Shown: positions 1,194-25,654 of the stretch, one piece after another
How positions within the stretch are numbered: the first letter of the stretch is position 1
Layout: every line of letters begins with the position of its first letter
Virus record (IMG/VR): IMGVR_UViG_3300027734_000267
Span: 1-26,814 of that record
Reading direction: 5' to 3' (one strand)
Length of the DNA: 26,814 bases
From: a virus
The notes under the pieces: generated by a model
Database searches by the model: none
Seen by the model: the letters and a program-made list of their open reading frames with translations, nothing else
What the model was told of the DNA's origin: nothing
Position numbers and translations under genes: made by a program

Positions 1194-3218
1194 ATGGACA
1201 ATATTTTTGAGCAACCCTCTGAACAAGATAAAGAGATTGTTGCTTTTGTAGTAAACCATTGTGACCGGTGGAGAGACTACAGAAATACCAATTATTTAAC
1301 TCTGTGGGATGAATACGAGCGTATTTTCCGTGGGGAATGGGCTGTAGAAGACCGTATGAGGGATTCGGAGAGGAGCCGTATTGTGACTCCCGCTGCCCAA
1401 CAAGCCGTAGAAACTCGTCATGCTGAGATTATGGAAGCAATCTTCGGTCAAGGTGAGTTCTTTGACATCGAAGACGATATTAAAGACGTAAACGGCAACC
1501 CGTTAGACGTTGAGATGATCAAAAAACAACTCAACGAAGACTTCAAATTAGACAAAATCCGTAAGTCTATCGACCAAATTGAGTTAATGGCCGAGATTTA
1601 TGGCACTGGTATCGGTGAGATTGTCGTAGTCACTGATAAAACCTTTGAACCTGCCACACAACAGATCCCAGGCCAACAACAAGCCGCTATCGGTGTAGTG
1701 GAAAAAGAGCGAATTGGCGTTCGGATTATTCCAGTTAATCCTAAAAACTTCCTTTTTGACCCTAATGGTACGTCTATTGAAGACTGCTTAGGCGTTGCGA
1801 TTGAAAAGTATGTCTCAATCCATAAAGTAGTAAAAGGTCAGGAAGACGGCATCTATAAAAAAGTAGACATTGGTACTTCTCCTGAAGACGATAGGTTAGA
1901 ACCCACTCAAGAGGTCGTACAGTATCGTGATGACAAAGTTAAGCTCTTAACCTACTACGGTTTAGTACCTAAAGAGCTTTTAAGCGGAAAAGAAGAAGTA
2001 GTAGAGTTATTCCCTGAAGAATCTTTGCAAGACGAATACGACAATTTAGTAGAAGCGATTGTTGTTATTGCAAATGACGGTATTCTTTTGAAAGCAGAAG
2101 AATCGCCGTACATGATGAAAGACCGTCCTTGTGTTCTCTATCAAGATGACACAGTACCTAATCGACTTTTAGGTCGAGGAACTGTTGAAAAAGCATACAA
2201 CATGCAGAAGGCTATCGACGCGCAGATCCGCAGTCACTTAGATTCTCTGGCTTTAACGACATCTCCTATGATTGCGATGGACGCAACTCGTCTTCCTCGA
2301 GGTGCTAAGTTTGAAGTCAAGCCTGGCAAAGCAATCTTAACTAACGGCGCTCCTAGTGAGATCTTGTATCCGTTTAAGTTTGGTAACACAGATGGTAATA
2401 ACATCGCTACTGCTAAAGACTTTGAGAGGATGCTCCTACAAGCTACTGGCACTTTAGACTCTCAAGGTATGGTGTCTCAAGTCGCAAGGGATGGTCAGTC
2501 TATGTCTCTTGCTGTAGCGACTATCATTAAAAAATACAAACGGACTTTGGTAAACTTCCAAGAAGATTTCCTTATCCCGTTTATCAAAAAAGCAGTCTAT
2601 AGGTATATGCAGTTCGATCCTGAACGATATCCTTCTGTAGACTTTAAATTCATTCCAACTGCGACGTTGGGTATTATTGCTAGAGAGTATGAACAACAAC
2701 AACTCATTGGACTTTTACAAACACTTGGCCCCAACACGCCTGTTCTGCCTATTATTCTCAAAGGCATATTAGGTAATTCTAGTCTCTCTAATCGCAATGA
2801 GTTAATTGCTACTCTTGATCAGATGTCTCAGCCCAATCCTGAGATGCAACAAATGCAACTTGTTAAAGAGCAGCTTGCACTTAAAGCGGCTCAGGCTCAG
2901 ATTGCTGTTGATACGACTCAAGCAGAACAGAATCGTGCTGAAGCTACAAAACTGACTGTAGAGGCACAACTTATGCCGAAAGAAATTGAAGCTAAGACGA
3001 TGGCCGCTGTTACCAAAAATCTTCCTACTAACGACGATTTGGCTTCAAAAGAATTCGATAAACGAGTCAAGATTGCTGAGTTAATGTTAAAAGAAGCAGA
3101 CATTAAAAATAAATCAAAAATTGTCGAGCTTCAAATGTCAAAAGCAAAAGACGATGCTTCTGCAACAGAGGAAGACTTCCTTTCACAATTGAATGGAGCC
3201 TTACGAAGTGGCGGGTAA
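1194..3218 (+). CDS. Portal (head-tail connector) protein
   Basis: Dodecameric ring at the packaging vertex; dock for the terminase and later for the tail. The 674-aa length fits podovirus portals. An AAGGA Shine-Dalgarno overlaps the terminase stop and precedes the ATG. Family-like features are the N-terminal segment with SERSRIVTPAAQQAVETRH, the repeated acidic/aromatic core, and a long C-terminal helical tail (residues about 540-670) rich in Gln, Ala, Glu and Lys, as expected for the crown/barrel helices. The position directly after terL supports the call. The assignment rests on recognising the family pattern and the gene order, not on a catalytic motif. Confidence 0.88.
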   Translation: MDNIFEQPSEQDKEIVAFVVNHCDRWRDYRNTNYLTLWDEYERIFRGEWAVEDRMRDSERSRIVTPAAQQAVETRHAEIMEAIFGQGEFFDIEDDIKDVNGNPLDVEMIKKQLNEDFKLDKIRKSIDQIELMAEIYGTGIGEIVVVTDKTFEPATQQIPGQQQAAIGVVEKERIGVRIIPVNPKNFLFDPNGTSIEDCLGVAIEKYVSIHKVVKGQEDGIYKKVDIGTSPEDDRLEPTQEVVQYRDDKVKLLTYYGLVPKELLSGKEEVVELFPEESLQDEYDNLVEAIVVIANDGILLKAEESPYMMKDRPCVLYQDDTVPNRLLGRGTVEKAYNMQKAIDAQIRSHLDSLALTTSPMIAMDATRLPRGAKFEVKPGKAILTNGAPSEILYPFKFGNTDGNNIATAKDFERMLLQATGTLDSQGMVSQVARDGQSMSLAVATIIKKYKRTLVNFQEDFLIPFIKKAVYRYMQFDPERYPSVDFKFIPTATLGIIAREYEQQQLIGLLQTLGPNTPVLPIILKGILGNSSLSNRNELIATLDQMSQPNPEMQQMQLVKEQLALKAAQAQIAVDTTQAEQNRAEATKLTVEAQLMPKEIEAKTMAAVTKNLPTNDDLASKEFDKRVKIAELMLKEADIKNKSKIVELQMSKAKDDASATEEDFLSQLNGALRSGG

Positions 3219-4611
3219 TTCAAATATAAAAAGTTGGTTTTTAACGAATTTGGCTATCATGGTCAAATCGTTAAAAAAAGTAGAAGATAATCTTGATAAA
3301 AAATATGAAAAAATAAATCAAGATGTTTTTGATCGCCTATCTAAAATTGTAGATGGCAAAGATGGGTTGGATGGTAAAGATGGCAAGCAAGGCCAAAAAG
3401 GTGATCGCGGAGAAAAAGGATCACCAGGAATAGATGGTAAAGACGGAAAGGATGGTGATTCTGTAGTAGATGCAAGAATAGACTTTGATGGAAGTCTTGT
3501 TATTACAATGTCTACTGGAAAAGAAATAAATGTTGGTGAAATAGTTCCAGATGATCTAAGAGATAAGTTAAAAGTATTTATCAGCAATACCACGGAATCC
3601 TCTGGAATTACTCCTGGAACTCTTTATGTAGACAATGTAAACAATTTTGTCGGAATAAATGTTCCTACTCCGACTACGCCATTAGATGTAACCGCCAATC
3701 CTGCTTATTCTGGTGGTTATATGAGCAATATTTACAACACTGTAACTGGCGTTCTTAGTGAATCAAAACTATTTATCAATGATGGAACAATTTATCAGAG
3801 ATACACTTATGATGTTTTAGGAGCACCTGCAAATCTTGATTTTATAGTTGAGCCAAGTGCCGTTAACATATCATCTAGTGTTCCAGTTCAATTTACAGCG
3901 TCATTAGTAAATATTCCTACTTTAACCTCAAACTCGTTTGCATTAACAGGGCCAGATTTTAATGTTTCAACATCAAACTCAACAAATCCAGTAAATGTTA
4001 ACTTTACCAATACTCTTGGTGGCGGCTCTAAACTTACATTAAGCACAGCAGGAGCATCGGCACTTTCTGACGCTGTTATTGTATTTAAAAATACTACCGC
4101 TACTACTGCGGATTGGTCTGTTGGTTGCGATCATAGTGACACTAAAGCATTTAAGATTTCAAGATTTACAACTCTTGGAACAAATGATGCAATCGTTATA
4201 CGGAGCGACACGCAACGAGTTGGTATTGGCGCGGCCTATGCAAATATAACTGCGCCGTTAACTGTTGGCGGTGTTGCTGCATTTGCCGCAGGAAATGCAA
4301 ATTTACCATCTATTGCTAGAAGCACAGACCTTGATACTGGAATATGGTTTCCAGCAGCAAATGAAGTTGCAGTATCAACCAATGGAACTGAAAAGTTACG
4401 AGTAATATCTTCTGGAAACGTTGGTATCAACGAGACTATTCCTGACTATAAGCTAGACGTAAATGGAACATTTGGCTTCACTCCAGGCACTTCAGTTACT
4501 CCAGTAGATAACGGTGACGTTGTATTTGAACTGACGAACAACACGACATTTACTATCAGGGCAAAGGGTTCTGATGGAACTACTCGATCTGTAGCATTAA
4601 CGCTTGCGTAA
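3208..4611 (+). CDS. Collagen-like tail fibre protein
   Basis: Virion fibre, probably host-contacting. Order of parts: a short helical N-terminus (SLKKVEDNLDKKYEKI), 12 uninterrupted Gly-X-Y triplets beginning GKDGLDGKDGK, a conserved module DFDGSLVITMSTGKEINVGE, then a long beta-rich region. The C-terminal third has the repeat pattern of phage and bacterial fibres (RVGIG, TDLDTGIWFPAANEVAVST, GNVGIN, YKLDVNG). The start is uncertain. GTG 3208 has GGAG 9 nt upstream and overlaps the portal stop by 11 nt. ATG 3193 is longer but lacks a Shine-Dalgarno, and ATG 3259 would remove helix shared with the next collagen-like protein. The fibre role is inferred from composition and repeats. Confidence 0.82.
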   Translation: MAGNSNIKSWFLTNLAIMVKSLKKVEDNLDKKYEKINQDVFDRLSKIVDGKDGLDGKDGKQGQKGDRGEKGSPGIDGKDGKDGDSVVDARIDFDGSLVITMSTGKEINVGEIVPDDLRDKLKVFISNTTESSGITPGTLYVDNVNNFVGINVPTPTTPLDVTANPAYSGGYMSNIYNTVTGVLSESKLFINDGTIYQRYTYDVLGAPANLDFIVEPSAVNISSSVPVQFTASLVNIPTLTSNSFALTGPDFNVSTSNSTNPVNVNFTNTLGGGSKLTLSTAGASALSDAVIVFKNTTATTADWSVGCDHSDTKAFKISRFTTLGTNDAIVIRSDTQRVGIGAAYANITAPLTVGGVAAFAAGNANLPSIARSTDLDTGIWFPAANEVAVSTNGTEKLRVISSGNVGINETIPDYKLDVNGTFGFTPGTSVTPVDNGDVVFELTNNTTFTIRAKGSDGTTRSVALTLA

Positions 4612-4620
4612 GGAATAAAT

Positions 4621-4944
4621 ATGATTGACGTTTCTTATGAATGGTTTGTTGATCAGATGCTTGTTAAACCAGTAGAGCTTGATAAACAAAATATTGTTTG
4701 TTCTGCAATTTGGCGGTGTATTGGAACGCACGATGAAGTTACTGGAACGCAATTTGGAACGGCTGATATTAAATACTTTGGATCTAAGGACTTTGTTCCG
4801 TATGAACAGCTTACAAAAGATATAGTTTTAAGTTGGTGCTGGTCATCAGGAGTTGATAAAAAAACCATTGAATCTTTGATCTATGAAGAAATTTCTGAAA
4901 AGTTAGAACCAAAGATTATCGCGTTACAGAACCCGTGGACTTAA
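4621..4944 (+). CDS. Small conserved phage protein between the fibre genes
   Basis: 107 aa, preceded by an AAGGA Shine-Dalgarno just after the fibre gene stop. No signal peptide or membrane segment. Visible landmarks are YEWFVDQM near the start, a central WRCIGTHDEVTGTQFGTADI, and an end reading IIALQNPW. This layout (aromatic start, 'W+ ..GTD' core, PW at the end) resembles a small family often found next to structural genes of marine and freshwater podoviruses (I believe DUF7936-like), whose function is unknown. A broken relative may lie at 8696-8785. The link to that family is from memory and unverified. Confidence 0.65.
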   Translation: MIDVSYEWFVDQMLVKPVELDKQNIVCSAIWRCIGTHDEVTGTQFGTADIKYFGSKDFVPYEQLTKDIVLSWCWSSGVDKKTIESLIYEEISEKLEPKIIALQNPWT

Positions 4945-5045
4945 TTAAATTATACTTTTATAGTACGTTTTACATAGATGCCTTTAAATAATTTACTGGC
5001 TTTTCTAGTTTGAATAAAACCGTTTTAGTTTATTTGGAAAATTAA

Positions 5046-7301
5046 ATGGATATTAATAAAATTTTTGATGGCAGTTTGGACGAAATTGCCAATAATATTT
5101 TTAATGAAACTAAAAATACAACGGATAAAGCAAAGGAAATTCAACAGCAAAAGATTGCTGAAAATGTCCAATATGTAATCGACGCACTCAAAAAGATTGA
5201 AGCTGATCTTCGTGGAGAATATGGCGATGTTGCCGACAAGCTATCTGAACGTATTTTGTCTATTAAAGATGGCAAAGACGGGCGTAATGGTGCTGATGGT
5301 CGTGATGGTAAAGATGGGCATCCTGGTCGTGATGGACTTGTTGGTGCAAAAGGTGCTGATGGATTGCCAGGCCGTGATGGAATAGACGGTGTTGATGGAG
5401 TTTCTGTCACTGATGCCAGTATCGACTTTGATGGCTCTCTCATTATTAATTTGTCCAATGGCAGCGTGATAAACGTTGGCGAGGTAGTGTCACAAGATTT
5501 GGCCGATAAGATTCAGGTCATTTCTACGATGTCCACGAATGGCACGATGGCGTCTACTCTGCTCACTTACAGTCCTCAGTATCAGGTGATGACAGCAGGG
5601 CAGACTGTAGTTAACTTTTCAACTACCTATGTTCCTGGAGTTGCTAGTCTTGCAATCTATTACAATGGTCTTCGGCTTGCAGTAAATGTAGACTACACTG
5701 AGACCTCAGTTTCCAGCATTACACTTACAAATCCTGCGTTGGTTGGTGATACAGTCTATAGTATGATTGGGCAGGAAATAGTAAGTACTGATGCTGTTGA
5801 TGCCTCTGTTGTTTCTTATACTCCTGCTGGAACTGGAGCCGTGGCAACAACCGTCCAAGCCAAGCTGAGGGAGAGTGTCAGCGTCAAAGACTTTGGTGCG
5901 GTTGGTAATGGAACGACAGATGACACAGTAGCTATTCAAGCAGCAATTACTGCCGCACAAATAAACGGGCAAAGCGTTTATCTGCCAGCAGGAAACTACC
6001 TTGTCTCAAACACACTGACCTTATCAAAACAAATTACGCTATTTGGTGACGGCATCCGTTCGTACATTAAAGTGGCCGCGTCAGTAGGTGCTACAACTGA
6101 CATCATCAAAATTAGTCCAAGTAGCAGCGACGATACGCAAAGCGGATTTATCCTTAAAGACTTCCGCATCGGGCCGGTGAGTGGAACCCCTGGTCGCCAC
6201 GCCATTGCAATCGACATAACCACCCGCGCTGTATATGCGTCACAGTTCAGCGGACTTCGTTTAGACGCTCTGGGTGGTCGCGGAATTGTAACGCTTCCCA
6301 ACGCCACGCCACTTGTGGATGGGTTCTTCACCTCGGTCATACAAGATTGCACAATTGCAAACGGCATGTATTTGGATGAGGCTGGAGATTCGATTCGTAT
6401 TTTGAATAACATATTCACTGGTGCCAATGTAGGCATTTACTTGAATTGTGTTTTTGTTAGTCCAGGCAATACACCTCACGGCATAGACATTGTTGGAAAC
6501 AGCTTTGTCAGTTCTGGAGGCGGCATTCAAATTAAGAACGGGTATGCAACGAGGGTAATTCGCAATCTGTTTGAAACCTCTGCTGGAAACGCAAACAACG
6601 CACTGTTAGATATTGATGGAACAAGCGCCACGGAAATTCCAGAAGGTGTTTTGGTTGAAGGAAACTTCTTTAGCACACCGCCTGCTGTTGACTCTATCCG
6701 AGTCAATTACGCAAGGATGGCGCAGATTGCATACAACACCATAAATGAGCCGGGCGGCGGTGGCTACGCATTTAGGGTCACGGCAAACGCTGTTAATACA
6801 CAGATTCTTTTTAACCCAACTAGCAGTGATTCTTCTAAAGCCGCGCAGTTAATTGATGCCGGAACAAATACGTTCTGGATGCGTAGCGGTTTGAGTGCGT
6901 ATGCGGAATTGTCTAAAGATTTATATCTGAATTCGCAGGGCGCAAGCGTGCGCGCTTCTGACACTGCGGGAACAGCTATTCGCGTAGTTAAGTGGGAAAG
7001 CGCGGACAATACGTTGAATCTAGGTGTAGTAGACGCTGCCGCTACAAACGGAATTCTTTTCTTATACGCGCAAGGAGTCGCAGCAGCAAGAATAAATGCT
7101 AACTCAACCACTTGGTTCAAGAACAAGATAAACCCCGGAACTGATGCCGGTGCGTTTCAGAGTGCGACAGGAATTTACGGAAATACTGGTGCGCCAAATA
7201 ACGCTAACGGTATTGACGGAGATTTTTATTTCCGCGCTGATGGTGGTGCGCTTACAAGCATTTACCATAAACGGGCTGGTGCTTGGGTCGGCATCATCTA
7301 A
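5046..7301 (+). CDS. Tailspike: collagen-like N-terminus plus pectate-lyase-fold beta-helix
   Basis: 751-aa virion adhesin, possibly a polysaccharide depolymerase. A coiled-coil-like N-terminus (residues 1-75) leads to 15 Gly-X-Y triplets, then a module DFDGSLIINLSNGSVINVGE shared with the fibre at 3208. Residues about 280-300 read VKDFGAVGNGTTDDTVAIQA, the signature opening of pectate-lyase-type beta-helix tailspikes. Turn-rich repeats with Asn and Gly continue to about residue 600. The C-terminus (DGDFYFRADGG, HKRAGAWVGII) resembles other phage spike ends. GGA at 5036-5038 serves as Shine-Dalgarno. The roughly 100 nt before it is AT-rich, with no convincing promoter or terminator. Catalytic residues cannot be assigned by eye. 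Confidence 0.87.
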   Translation: MDINKIFDGSLDEIANNIFNETKNTTDKAKEIQQQKIAENVQYVIDALKKIEADLRGEYGDVADKLSERILSIKDGKDGRNGADGRDGKDGHPGRDGLVGAKGADGLPGRDGIDGVDGVSVTDASIDFDGSLIINLSNGSVINVGEVVSQDLADKIQVISTMSTNGTMASTLLTYSPQYQVMTAGQTVVNFSTTYVPGVASLAIYYNGLRLAVNVDYTETSVSSITLTNPALVGDTVYSMIGQEIVSTDAVDASVVSYTPAGTGAVATTVQAKLRESVSVKDFGAVGNGTTDDTVAIQAAITAAQINGQSVYLPAGNYLVSNTLTLSKQITLFGDGIRSYIKVAASVGATTDIIKISPSSSDDTQSGFILKDFRIGPVSGTPGRHAIAIDITTRAVYASQFSGLRLDALGGRGIVTLPNATPLVDGFFTSVIQDCTIANGMYLDEAGDSIRILNNIFTGANVGIYLNCVFVSPGNTPHGIDIVGNSFVSSGGGIQIKNGYATRVIRNLFETSAGNANNALLDIDGTSATEIPEGVLVEGNFFSTPPAVDSIRVNYARMAQIAYNTINEPGGGGYAFRVTANAVNTQILFNPTSSDSSKAAQLIDAGTNTFWMRSGLSAYAELSKDLYLNSQGASVRASDTAGTAIRVVKWESADNTLNLGVVDAAATNGILFLYAQGVAAARINANSTTWFKNKINPGTDAGAFQSATGIYGNTGAPNNANGIDGDFYFRADGGALTSIYHKRAGAWVGII
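5883..5944 (+). repeat. Copy 1 of duplicated beta-helix entry segment
   Basis: 62 nt encoding VKDFGAVGNG and the following DDTVAIQAA. It matches 7380-7441 in the next spike gene at about 52 of 62 positions by hand alignment. It is a direct repeat inside two adjacent, homologous tailspike domains and could seed recombination between them. Confidence 0.8.
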
Positions 7302-7322
7302 ATCTAATATTTAGGAACTCCA

Positions 7323-8582
7323 ATGACAACACTTTCTAAAGCAAGACAGAACGCACTCTACGCTGACGCTGTGGTTGATGTAAAAGACTTTGGTGCGGTT
7401 GGTGATGGGGTAGCTGATGACACAGTAGCTCTACAAGCAGCTAGGGACTTTATTGCCGCCAATGCAACACGCTACAAATTGATTTTTCCTTCTGGCATTT
7501 ACAAATATACGGCCTCTCCAAATTGGGCTATTCAAAACGCCGAAATTGAGGGGCAAGGTGAGGTTCGGCTGCGATGTGTTACCGCAGGAGTAAACGCTGT
7601 AATTATTGACTCCGGTAGTTCTGGCTATGTTTACAACATGAAGATGACCGGCTTTATTGTGGACGGCATAGCTACAGGGCTAAACGGTGTTTATATCAGG
7701 TCAGTTCACCATAGCAAGTTTGGTTTCAATGTTCGTGGTGCTGGCACAACGTCAGCAGGGTTGTTAATTAAATTTGCTGTCTGCAACATATTCGAGAACT
7801 TTATTTGCTCTGTAAACGAAGGAGGGTGGTATTCAACGACAAAGCCCGCTTTCGGCGTAAGCATGGAAATTCGCAATCCTGGCGAGACGGTTAGCTATTG
7901 CACCTTTATCAACCCCGTGATTGAGGGGCCAGATATAGGTATTCAATCAACTGGCTCTCTTGGTAACGTATTCCTCGGCGGCACTTCGGAAGCCTGTTCT
8001 ACATACGGAGTTTTTCTATCTTCCGCATCAAATGGCGATAAGTTTTTTGGAACAGACTTTGAAGCAAATACGGTGGCTGATGTTTACTGCCAAGCAACTG
8101 CTCTTGAATTACATGGCGTTGACTCAACCAATCTTATTGCGTTCGGAACAACTGCTGTGCGTTGTGCTATTTTGGGTGGGCAACATAGCAGCATTAACAT
8201 AGATGTTGGCGCAATCCGTTGCTCGGTTGTCAATGCGGGCTTTAATAAAACTGGTTTTGCCGGAACATTCTCTGACGCAGGAACGCAAACTTATATTTCC
8301 AACGTCCAGAACATTATTGGGGCGGTGAGATATTTAACTGGAACAATTGCAGCAACACCGGGAACTATTGCCGCTGCGGGACAAGGAGTATTCACGGTAA
8401 CTGTAACAGGCGCAGCATTAGGGGACTTGGCTGTTGCCTCTTATTCGCTCAGTGTTGCCGGATTAGTAATGACTGCAAATGTAACTTCCGCAAACACTGT
8501 AACCGTGTATATGACAAATACTTCACTTGCAGGCATAGCGCCCGGTTCTGGAAATATCCGCGTAATGGTAACGCGAGGTTGA
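7323..8582 (+). CDS. Second tailspike, pectate-lyase-fold beta-helix
   Basis: 419 aa. The Shine-Dalgarno TTAGGA is 7 nt upstream of the ATG. Unlike its neighbour it has no collagen or virion-anchor module: after MTTLSKARQNALYADAVVD it goes straight to the beta-helix entry VKDFGAVGDG..DDTVALQA (residues about 19-42). A right-handed beta-helix-like pattern with short Gly/Asn turns fills the middle. The last 75 residues (from about TGTIAATPGTIAAAGQG) form a separate beta-sandwich-like domain similar to the capsid decoration-like protein at 11522. It may bind a partner protein, or be a subunit attached through another fibre. Depolymerase activity is possible but unproven. Confidence 0.82.
   Translation: MTTLSKARQNALYADAVVDVKDFGAVGDGVADDTVALQAARDFIAANATRYKLIFPSGIYKYTASPNWAIQNAEIEGQGEVRLRCVTAGVNAVIIDSGSSGYVYNMKMTGFIVDGIATGLNGVYIRSVHHSKFGFNVRGAGTTSAGLLIKFAVCNIFENFICSVNEGGWYSTTKPAFGVSMEIRNPGETVSYCTFINPVIEGPDIGIQSTGSLGNVFLGGTSEACSTYGVFLSSASNGDKFFGTDFEANTVADVYCQATALELHGVDSTNLIAFGTTAVRCAILGGQHSSINIDVGAIRCSVVNAGFNKTGFAGTFSDAGTQTYISNVQNIIGAVRYLTGTIAATPGTIAAAGQGVFTVTVTGAALGDLAVASYSLSVAGLVMTANVTSANTVTVYMTNTSLAGIAPGSGNIRVMVTRG
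7380..7441 (+). repeat. Copy 2 of duplicated beta-helix entry segment
   Basis: 62 nt encoding VKDFGAVGDG and the following DDTVALQAA; direct repeat of 5883-5944 with about 10 mismatches by hand alignment. Confidence 0.8.
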
Positions 8583-9724: not shown

Positions 9725-10477
9725 ATGTTAGTTGATACTGAAATTGATACGTTTGATAGTAAAGAATCAGCAAAGTTGGAAGACACTGTTGGGCAAAATA
9801 CCAATGAACTCCCTGAGAAATACCAGGGCAAGTCTTTAGATGACATTGTTAAAATGCACCAAGAGGCTGAAAAGCTCATTGGAAAGCAAGCTCAAGAAGT
9901 CGGTGAAGTCCGCAAACTTGCTGATGAACTCATTAAACAAAATATCAATAAGAATCAAGAAAACATCCAGCAACAAGAGCCTGAAGTAGATTTTTTTGAA
10001 GATCCGAAAAAAGCAATTCAGAATACTGTTGATCGACACCCTGATGTTTTAGCTGCAAAACAAGCCACGCAAGAGTTTAAAAAGATGCAGATCCAACAAA
10101 AACTCAGCAAAGACCATCCTGATTACGTTGACATTGTTAATAACAGTGACTTTGCTAATTGGGTTAAAGAAAGTCCTGTAAGGCTTGGACTTTATGCTAA
10201 AGCAGACGGTGAGTTTGATTACGACAGTGCTAATGAGTTGCTTTCCACCTATAAAGCATTGCGGTCAATTAAGTCAAAGCAAGCGGAGAATGAAGGCAAA
10301 GAAGTCCGTAAGCAAAGTCTTAAAGCCGCATCTGTTGATACTGGTGGATCTGGAGAATCTTCGCGTAGGGTCTACCGTAGGGCTGACCTGATCCGTTTGA
10401 AAATGACTGATCCTCAACGATACGAAGCTCTCAGCGATGAGATCATGAAAGCGTATCAAGAGGGCAGAGTTAAATAA
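9725..10477 (+). CDS. Scaffold (capsid assembly) protein
   Basis: 250 aa, highly charged, mostly helical, immediately before the capsid gene, as in T7-like phages. An acidic N-terminus with a conserved-type LPEKYQGKSLDDIVKMHQEA is followed by a long coiled-coil-like stretch, FFEDPKKAIQNTVDRHP, and a basic C-terminus YRRADLIRLKMTDPQRYEAL that typically binds the coat protein. The scaffold guides procapsid formation and leaves the head before or during packaging. AGGAAAGG upstream serves as Shine-Dalgarno. Called from composition, motif pattern and position. Confidence 0.88.
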   Translation: MLVDTEIDTFDSKESAKLEDTVGQNTNELPEKYQGKSLDDIVKMHQEAEKLIGKQAQEVGEVRKLADELIKQNINKNQENIQQQEPEVDFFEDPKKAIQNTVDRHPDVLAAKQATQEFKKMQIQQKLSKDHPDYVDIVNNSDFANWVKESPVRLGLYAKADGEFDYDSANELLSTYKALRSIKSKQAENEGKEVRKQSLKAASVDTGGSGESSRRVYRRADLIRLKMTDPQRYEALSDEIMKAYQEGRVK

Positions 10478-10494: not shown

Positions 10495-11466
10495 ATGGCG
10501 TTTCCTACCCCTGCCGTAACCATTACCACCGCAGCAACTTTCATTCCTGAAATTTGGAGTGACGAGATTGTGGCTGCATACAAGAAAAACCTCGTTGCTG
10601 CTAACCTGGTTAAGAAAATGAACTACAAAGGCAAGAAAGGTGACACCGTTCACGTTCCTTCGCCGACCCGTGGTTCTGCAACCGCCAAAGCTGCTTCGAC
10701 CGCTGTTACCCTGATTGCCGCCACGGAATCGGAAGTGCAAGTCCTGATCGACAAGCACTACGAATACAGCCGACTGATCGAAGACATCGTTGAAGTCCAA
10801 GCCCTGTCTTCGCTGCGTTCGTTCTACACGGAAGACGCTGGCTACGCTCTGGCGCGTCAAGTTGATACCGACCTGATCCGCTTGGGTCGCGCTTTCAACG
10901 GCGCTACGATTGGTACGAACGATTACGCTACGTCAGCCGCTTCGACCAAAGCTTACATTGGTTCGGATGGCACGACCGCGTACAACAGCTCGAGCTCGAA
11001 CGCCGCTGCTCTGACGGATGCTGCTATTCGTCGCACGATCCAGCGTCTGGATGATAACGACACCCCGATGGACGGTCGTTTCTTTATCATTCCGCCGTCG
11101 AGCCGCAACACGCTGATGGGCCTGGCTCGTTACACTGAGCAAGCGTTCGTTGGTGAGGCTGGTTCCAACAACACCATCCGTAATGGTGAAATTGGCAACC
11201 TGTACGGTATGCCCGTATTCGTTACCTCCAACGCCGACACTGGCGCGGGTAACAGCGGTGCGGATCGTATCTGCCTGATGGGTCATCGTGACTCGATGGT
11301 TCTGGTTGAGCAAGTTGGTATCCGTTCGCAAACACAATACAAGCAGGAATATCTGGCTACGCTGTACACCGCCGATACCCTGTACGGTGTTAAGGCGATG
11401 CGTACGGCTGCAAGCGTTGGTGCTGCTACTTCTAGCTCCGCTGTTGCTCTGGCTGTTCCGGCCTAA
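10495..11466 (+). CDS. Major capsid protein
   Basis: 323 aa, HK97-fold type by expected length and position. It has the best ribosome site in the window: AAGGAG 8 nt before the ATG. The N-terminus (FIPEIWSDEIVAAYKKNLVAANLVKK), then GDTVHVPSP, LIDKHYEYSRLIEDI and DTDLIRLG are typical of podovirus coat proteins. The C-terminal part contains GEIGNLYGMPVFVTSN. Codons end mostly in C or G (CTG, CGT, GAC, ACC, GCT) and GC is clearly above the neighbours, consistent with selection for very high expression. A terminator follows within a few bases of the stop. Confidence 0.95.
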   Translation: MAFPTPAVTITTAATFIPEIWSDEIVAAYKKNLVAANLVKKMNYKGKKGDTVHVPSPTRGSATAKAASTAVTLIAATESEVQVLIDKHYEYSRLIEDIVEVQALSSLRSFYTEDAGYALARQVDTDLIRLGRAFNGATIGTNDYATSAASTKAYIGSDGTTAYNSSSSNAAALTDAAIRRTIQRLDDNDTPMDGRFFIIPPSSRNTLMGLARYTEQAFVGEAGSNNTIRNGEIGNLYGMPVFVTSNADTGAGNSGADRICLMGHRDSMVLVEQVGIRSQTQYKQEYLATLYTADTLYGVKAMRTAASVGAATSSSAVALAVPA

Positions 11467-25013: not shown

Positions 25014-25117
25014 TTTATGATTTCAATCTTTTTGCACTCTAGTTTTCCGGTCTGATAGCCAGTAAAAAGACATGCGATCATCAATATAAAAACAGCAATG
25101 AGTTCTGATATTTTCAT
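25010..25117 (-). CDS. 35-aa membrane protein
   Basis: MKISELIAVFILMIACLFTG forms one transmembrane helix; the tail YQTGKLECKKIEIIK is basic. ATG 25117 lies 4 nt after the CCA end of the interrupted tRNA gene. Its stop overlaps the next start by ATGA. A longer reading from 25195 would run through tRNA sequence and is unlikely. Small spanin-like, anchor or regulatory roles are possible; unknown. Confidence 0.55.
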   Translation of the reverse strand: MKISELIAVFILMIACLFTGYQTGKLECKKIEIIK

Positions 25118-25559
25118 GATTGGTAGGCGAGGCCGGAATCGAACCGGCAAGCGCTTTTTTTTCCCAATGATTTTTATAAGAGCCTTTTCCAGCACATTTT
25201 CTGCTGCAATACGGCCCTGATTTTTGTTTTTTTAAGTTTCCTAAAACATAATTTAAAAACTTTGTAAATTTAATATTGCAAGCAGGACAAATACCTTTAA
25301 ATAATTTTCTTTTTCTATGAATTTGCAAAAATTCTTTTTTTGCATTGTCTGAACGAGACAAAATTTGCAAATTTTCAATCCTATTATCTTGAAAATTATT
25401 GTTTATATGGTCTACTGTCTCATGTTCTTTTAATTTTCTTCCAAGATGATTTTCCATTAAAAACTTGGGATAGGATTTTGTTTGTTTTTTTCCATTTTTA
25501 TAAACCAAAATAACGTGCATCCTATTGTCTTTTCTTAAATATGGCCCATAAACTTTCAT
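25023..25559 (-). CDS. HNH homing endonuclease inside a tRNA locus
   Basis: 178 aa from ATG 25559, preceded by AGGTGA. HNH core ETVDHINNNFQDNRIENLQI (residues 47-66), D50-H51 with N54 and N63 as candidate catalytic/metal positions, then LSRSDNAKK. A Cys-ligand ribbon follows: CPAC (91-94) and YCSRKC (117-122). From about residue 138 the frame runs through the 3' tRNA half (LAGSIPASPTN) and then through the start of the next gene. The true end of the domain is probably near residue 130. It makes a double- or single-strand cut that promotes spread of the cassette to uninterrupted alleles. Confidence 0.85.
   Translation of the reverse strand: MKVYGPYLRKDNRMHVILVYKNGKKQTKSYPKFLMENHLGRKLKEHETVDHINNNFQDNRIENLQILSRSDNAKKEFLQIHRKRKLFKGICPACNIKFTKFLNYVLGNLKKQKSGPYCSRKCAGKGSYKNHWEKKALAGSIPASPTNHENIRTHCCFYIDDRMSFYWLSDRKTRVQKD
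25121..25148 (-). tRNA. 3' half of an interrupted tRNA-Leu-like gene
   Basis: Reads GCCGG TTCGATT CCGGC (T arm), then acceptor strand CTCGCCT, discriminator A, and an encoded CCA. There is no 5' half or anticodon arm within the preceding 100 nt on this strand. The acceptor strand pairs at all 7 positions (one G-U) with GGGCGAG at 25716-25722. The region just before it (25149-25165) is A-rich on this strand and may hold part of a variable arm. Confidence 0.75.
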
Positions 25560-25577
25560 ATTTTTCACCTATATAAT

Positions 25578-25654
25578 TGGTACGGGCGGTGAGATTCGAA
25601 CTCACACTTTGAGAATTTTAAGTTCTCTTTCTCTGCCGATTGGAATACGCCCGC
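25578..25654 (-). tRNA. tRNA-Leu (UAA), short variable loop, CCA encoded
   Basis: 77 nt. Acceptor GCGGGCG pairs with CGCCCGT (one G-U). D-stem is weak (TTCC..AGAA) with GG in the loop. Anticodon stem GAGAA/TTCTC is perfect, loop CTTAAAA, so the anticodon is UAA. T arm GTGAG TTCGAAT CTCAC; discriminator A and CCA are encoded. The variable region is only AAAGT, whereas bacterial tRNA-Leu normally has a long variable arm. Decodes UUA, a codon favoured in AT-rich DNA. It lies inside the interrupted tRNA locus. Confidence 0.9.

Follow-up and report, generated by a model that had tools for sequence, protein, structure and literature searches.

Two fibre proteins with a homologous coil-collagen-cap stalk and different tips, encoded behind the portal gene of an uncultured podovirus

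Do two neighbouring phage genes encode fibres that share one virion anchor and differ in exchangeable tips, both of them carried at once? An earlier note proposed this for two proteins, here called fibre A and spike B, encoded in a 26,814-base stretch of viral DNA, the whole of which we refer to as the window. The genes of the window follow the order terminase (55-1185), portal, A, DUF7936 protein, B, protein C, scaffold-like protein (9725-10477) and major capsid protein (10495-11466). The features on which the analysis turns are as follows.

1194..3218, + strand: portal protein (phrog_1216, E 1.6e-38; SU10_portal, E 4.9e-17)
3193..4611, + strand: fibre A, 472 aa, overlapping the portal gene by 26 nt
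3244..3354, + strand: A coiled-coil stretch (LKKVE), residues 18-54 (pairwise and profile tests)
3355..3462, + strand: A collagen-like run of 12 Gly-X-Y triplets, residues 55-90 (Pfam Collagen)
3463..3576, + strand: A cap behind the collagen, residues 91-128 (B-type profile, 72.8 bits)
3607..4608, + strand: A tail-fibre-type tip, residues 139-472 (phrog_9942 and a relative in locus L006)
4621..4944, + strand: DUF7936 protein (PF25590, E 3.3e-14), directly behind A, likewise in L006
5046..7301, + strand: spike B, 751 aa
5046..5270, + strand: B N-terminal helix/coiled coil, residues 1-75 (alignment A3; AlphaFold2 helix 11-72, pLDDT about 70-80)
5271..5405, + strand: B collagen-like run of 15 Gly-X-Y triplets, residues 76-120 (Pfam Collagen)
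5406..5519, + strand: B cap, residues 121-158, predicted three strands and short helix (block pLDDT 83-88)
5553..5780, + strand: B linker domain, folded like the docking domains of phage fibres (model, Foldseek, VIA-align)
5877..7301, + strand: B pectate-lyase-type beta-helix tip and C-terminus (PF12708, E 8.1e-21, residues 278-362)
7323..8582, + strand: C, beta-helix protein, 419 aa (PF12708, E 2.2e-6, residues 18-61)

The terminase frame of the window lacks its start and 15 of the 20 long family records (at least 30 kb, checked for copy number) exceed 35 kb, so the window is probably a fragment of a longer phage genome. The closest portals among 50,697 phage records are distant (nine records, 22-26% identity over 28-47% of the length), and the group is therefore without a close cultured member in that collection. 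HTVC115P carries a relative of the window portal. A host and prophage scan of genome contigs gave 41 pattern matches and no relatives. INPHARED searches returned two records for B, six for A and three for the DUF7936 protein, the matches of A and B being all partial and below 60% identity, and the module shared by A and B is undescribed in the titles and abstract openings of the open-access literature searched. This module is a mark of an uncultured podovirus group. Near the far end of the window a tRNA-Leu gene (taa; 25578-25654, minus strand) adjoins an ORF at 25023-25568 that we read by eye as HNH-like.

A homologous stalk in A and B

A and B begin with a homologous module composed of a coiled coil with the motif LKK(V/I)E, a Gly-X-Y run and a short cap (DFDGSL). 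In both proteins the run is uninterrupted and flanked by coil and cap, the arrangement of a collagen-like fibre, and the triplet counts of 12 and 15 agree with those given earlier. Over the 60 residues behind the collagen the two proteins align with a score of 131, which none of 1000 shuffles reached (mean 24.5, sd 4.5), and over the pre-collagen part with a score of 49, a weaker signal that 2 of 1000 shuffles equal or exceed. A profile built from 36 B-type rows gave 21.8 bits for the first 54 residues of A and 72.8 bits for its cap, where the best of 1000 shuffles reached 13.7 and 9.1, respectively. The N-terminal parts are thus significantly similar outside the triplets, pairwise as well as by profile, and the cap and coil scores rule out a similarity confined to Gly-X-Y. 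Distal to the module the score of 51 is reached by 144 of 200 shuffles, that is, the proteins differ there as the earlier note had stated, and the best common DNA stretch of the two genes is 70% identical over 113 bp. The range first assigned to the pair, 3208-5550, starts 15 nt inside A, and the B module ends near 5519.

An AlphaFold2 model of the module built from 38 aligned sequences contains a helix at residues 11-72, a collagen part without order, three strands at 121-146 and a short helix. Confidence is low overall (pLDDT 68, pTM 0.25) and higher in the cap, with blocks of 83-88 over residues 121-150. Collagens dominate the matches of a PDB search with the module profile.

The tip of A matches tail-fibre families (phrog_9942, E 6.7e-16), and B ends in a beta-helix spike, as had been proposed; the pectate-lyase-type beta-helix region of PF12708 is present in B and C. 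A tip 62% identical to that of A occurs in L006, where the N-terminal part is a different one with GPT-type collagen and the tip is again followed by a DUF7936 gene, with DNA identity to the window of 80.7% over 4020-4758. The DUF7936 protein, which is not named in the open-access literature searched, may be a tip-linked chaperone. Among 93 module genes a DUF7936 gene lies directly behind 17 and elsewhere in the locus for 4, and none was seen for 72. Its use as a marker of non-lyase tips was dropped since all 93 tips are non-lyase by motif, which leaves no contrast.

The proposal of a common anchor with exchangeable tips stands in part: the stalk is common and tips are exchanged across the 105 proteins described below, whereas the anchor role is called into question by the N-terminus of A and by the position of the cap distal to the collagen. 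An in-frame stop lies directly 5' of the first ATG of A, and 26 residues precede its coil motif (19 in the A-type protein of L110) versus 44-53 in 35 of the 36 B-type rows. A therefore lacks the stretch with which the B-type helix begins, a natural docking candidate at the extreme N-terminus, and its docking site may be a different one. The exception among the B-type rows, L232, has 23 residues before the motif in a single portal-adjacent copy, and so the long helix is not indispensable. For the cap, a role in trimerisation or registration is at least as likely as one in anchoring. What A and B have in common is a capped stalk.

Our reading, to which we assign a probability of roughly three in four, is that A and B are virion fibres on one homologous stalk and that the portal-adjacent gene encodes a receptor-binding fibre whose tip is replaced while its stalk is kept. 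In the stalk an alpha-helical coiled coil would lead into a collagen triple helix, which a small beta cap would close and connect to the tip; evolution would swap the tip of the gene directly behind the portal and retain the stalk. A, the copy next to the portal, is shorter at its N-terminus and B, further downstream, is of full length, so that the phage of the window would display an enzyme-like beta-helix spike alongside a tail-fibre-type tip. We infer that the fibres are trimeric, that the N-terminal helix is the docking part, that the tips bind receptors and that the beta-helix cleaves glycans.

The short N-termini of A and of the L110 A-type protein would equally be expected if the shared part were a generic collagen-closing stalk reused by phages, with A attaching by its own N-terminus, at another site or on B. 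The Stenotrophomonas phage SOVA965, otherwise different, points the same way: directly behind its portal it encodes a similar collagen-cap protein whose cap scores 26.6 bits (best of 1000 shuffles, 11.0), so the cap is not confined to the phage group of the window. However, A is homologous to B also in the helix that precedes the collagen, it sits next to the portal just as the single copies of its relatives do, and the single copy of L232 is likewise short at its N-terminus; we consider a generic stalk possible and lean against it. The short module protein of L232 (3316-3795, a 170-aa frame) has a second Gly-X-Y stretch behind its cap, as does that of SOVA965.

The portal-adjacent slot and the exchange of tips

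The portal, directly upstream of the module gene, served as marker of the slot. A portal scan of viral contigs yielded at least 599 stretches, at least 598 of them relatives; as in each of the larger scans, the analysis continued with the best 80, which included 75 new loci. Among these 75 new loci (from the best 80 of at least 598 portal relatives), the module lies directly behind the portal in 68, its stop-to-stop frame beginning 0 to 66 nt before the portal frame ends. The seven loci without a module have just 0-368 nt of DNA left after the portal, and the module is present in all 68 new portal loci having at least 842 nt there. The full collection of 153 portal loci, partly chosen by module, comprises 146 with the module and the same seven without. 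Such a slot would let the candidate receptor-binding protein of these uncultured phages be found by position.

Two module copies are rare and not a family trait. That two tips are carried at once holds for the window, as the earlier note had it, and is rare elsewhere: each of the 20 family records of at least 30 kb has one copy, and two were seen in one of the 153 portal loci, L110 (a 15.4-kb record), a count that leaves out L003, in which B is truncated ahead of the cap, and the window itself. The two-copy lineage of the window consists of the window, L003 and L005, in which an A tip stands before a B-type gene. L251 has an A-type gene as in L110, but its record ends before any B. The record of L006 (38.3 kb) and that of L015 (17.3 kb) were retrieved by tip or linker similarity and contain no copy. 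The A-type match of L110 overruns one TGA, the stop just before the A-type frame and inside the portal gene. The A-type protein of L110 has only 199 aa, and three ORFs of 144, 98 and 560 aa, the last glycine-rich, lie between the A-type and B-type genes of that locus (4996-7871).

A search for further copies with other tips found many different tips behind the module in related phages. The 105 distinct complete module proteins (A and B of the window included) have tips of 30-1247 residues, which greedy grouping sorted into 51 tip types, and 3425 of the 5460 pairs share less than 20% of the tip. Where the modules are at least 90% identical (157 pairs), 7 pairs share less than 20% of the tip, 59 share more than 80% and 91 fall between. 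The N-terminal part is thus conserved in related phages and the C-terminal part replaced independently, the pattern by which modular receptor-binding proteins are recognized, and relatives of both the A and the B tip occur behind other N-termini elsewhere. A Pfam scan of 50 tip representatives (B of the window omitted) identified the S74 chaperone in five and a pectate lyase in none.

The module gene has itself passed from one backbone to another. The B module is 85% identical to that of L166, whose portal is 80% identical, versus 55-57% to the B-type modules of L170-L173, L175 and L110, whose portals are 93.5-95% identical; its being closer to L166 than to loci with nearer portals indicates that the gene moves too. 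Between the portal and the single module gene of L166 lies a 32-bp stretch 97% identical to the 3' end of A and the start region that follows, which is consistent with the loss of an A gene. Ahead of the L166 portal (3-893) a frame reads GTKNHP...VYNLTVEHAHSYYANGILVHNC ahead of DALSYIDQLAVTSYF, with an ORF at 137-745; we take the frame to be an intein inside the terminase and the ORF to be HNH-like.

The position of the gene between portal and scaffold would also suit head or neck fibres, with the module proteins serving as decoration and not as receptor-binding tail fibres. The counterpart in SOVA965, a phage of different architecture, lies between the portal and a head-tail connector, a place that would likewise suit a neck or head fibre. 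We think a decorative role unlikely for the family, since the tip diversity, the enzyme-like beta-helix of B and the S74 chaperone in 5 of 50 tips are usual in host-recognition proteins, and virion position is not fixed by gene position. The family amounts to a natural series: about a hundred fibres keep the stalk while the tip changes, in a group whose portals are distant from the nearest ones in the 50,697 phage records.

The build of spike B and its neighbour C

Spike B is an unusual chimera in which the module leads to a domain of docking-type fold and then to a pectate-lyase-type beta-helix. Modelled alone, the linker domain reached pLDDT 84 and pTM 0.65, with core blocks of 91-98 (residues 11-80). 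Its VIA-align matches include LME-1 (Z 10.2), HRP29 (9.8), a KP1 variant baseplate (9.7), CBA120 TSP4 (9.5), T7 tail and gp17 (9.2 and 8.9) and a T4 baseplate chain (7.6) that we take to be gp10, with rmsd 1.5-3.7 over 64-73 residues; the best Foldseek E is 6.3e-4. Each of the upper 24 rows belongs to a phage tail, neck, baseplate or fibre. Further down, unrelated proteins appear, such as spore fibres (Z 6.9) and a Thermus protein (6.0), and a common arrangement can give a Z near 8. A sequence-only PDB search with this domain was uninformative (one row, E 0.68). In a single-sequence search B is the sole match to its own lyase or linker among the 105 module proteins. Linker-bearing ORFs number 36 in the collected loci, most of them retrieved by similarity to B, and only two of these, both from the window, also have the module.

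The two sides of the junction have different relatives. From 5046 onwards B DNA shares 81% identity with L166 as far as 5543 and with L005 as far as 5552, and is unrelated beyond. The linker DNA (5555-5948) matches L015 at 90.4% identity between flanks that differ on both sides, the L015 protein having another N-terminus and another beta-helix. The limits at 5552 and 5555 nearly coincide, which suggests where recombination joined the cassettes. The module-linker junction was found in no contig besides the window, and an exact 30-mer across it matched no viral contig, exact matching being a procedure that misses variants. This singularity, like the lack of a lyase or linker match in the other module proteins, would be expected if a collagen-module fibre gene had been fused during assembly to the spike gene of another phage. 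Such an artefact is distinctly improbable, given that the frame is open across the join and that near-identical contigs lie on either side: L003 (99.4% to the window) joins A, DUF7936 and the N-terminus of B and stops at 5390, and L013 (99.96%) starts at 6165 and carries the B tip with C. The nearest linker found is, moreover, only 90% identical, so that of B is not a stray piece of L015.

In protein C about 16 residues precede the beta-helix. Its relatives found are L013 (the same phage, 100%) and L252, 52% identical, where the match begins at residue 17 behind a longer N-terminal region; L014, a beta-helix relative of B (43% over its tip), has another N-terminal region as well. From the look of the sequence the N-termini of L252 and L014 are presumably of the P22-like head-binding type, and Pfam gave no match on these regions. 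The B linker and the nearly anchorless C fit an anchor-branch scheme (G7C/KP32 type), in which C would dock on B; the second protein of such systems has a short conserved docking peptide, a role for which the roughly 16 residues of C may qualify. As a speculative extension, which we rate as rather unlikely, B could be a doubly docked hub: a collagen stalk would have been grafted before a spike that kept its gp17/gp10-type docking domain, this domain would hold C, and the apparatus would bear three tips (A, B, C) on collagen stalks, where the shortened A would either attach at a second site or mix with B by way of their common coil.

Comparison with known systems

The anchor-branch scheme and modular receptor-binding proteins are described for Klebsiella phages (KP32, KP34 and others) in the excerpts of PMC6872550 used here. 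According to these, the receptor-binding proteins, one or more per phage, have a conserved N-terminal part and an exchangeable C-terminal part, like A and B. The likeness may extend to a gp10-like docking domain behind the anchor and to a second receptor-binding protein without an anchor (PMC6872550), for which the B linker, by its fold, and C, by its sequence, would be the candidates. Unlike in the Klebsiella proteins as excerpted, the N-terminal part is here built of coil, collagen and cap, is common to two proteins and is encoded at the portal. In SU10, a short-tailed phage, fibres attach to adaptor and nozzle in the portion of the account considered (PMC9509320).

The E. coli prophage proteins EPclA-D resemble A and B in placing a coiled coil beside a collagen triple helix in a trimeric stalk, putative in the case of A and B, and in having non-collagen end domains and a length that varies by triplets (PMC3368898, in part). 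They differ in their end domains, PfN and PfC (same excerpts), and neither PfN (PF08400) nor PfC (PF06820) has a Pfam match in A or B at E up to 0.01. FibU (gp68) of staphylococcal phage 80alpha is likewise a collagen-like upper virion fibre (PMC7048315), and its profile match (E 2.1e-6) rests largely on Gly-X-Y. It differs in its BppU-like N-terminal domain, its place in a siphovirus baseplate and, within the excerpts of that work, its lack of a coiled coil (PMC7048315).

The docking domains of the T7 gp17 N-terminus, CBA120 TSP4 and T4 gp10 have the same fold as the B linker at 14-18% identity; those of T7 gp17 and its like stand at the N-terminus, whereas that of B follows a collagen module. 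Modular receptor-binding proteins and phage collagens are already known, and it is their combination, the portal-adjacent slot and the chimeric B that are new.
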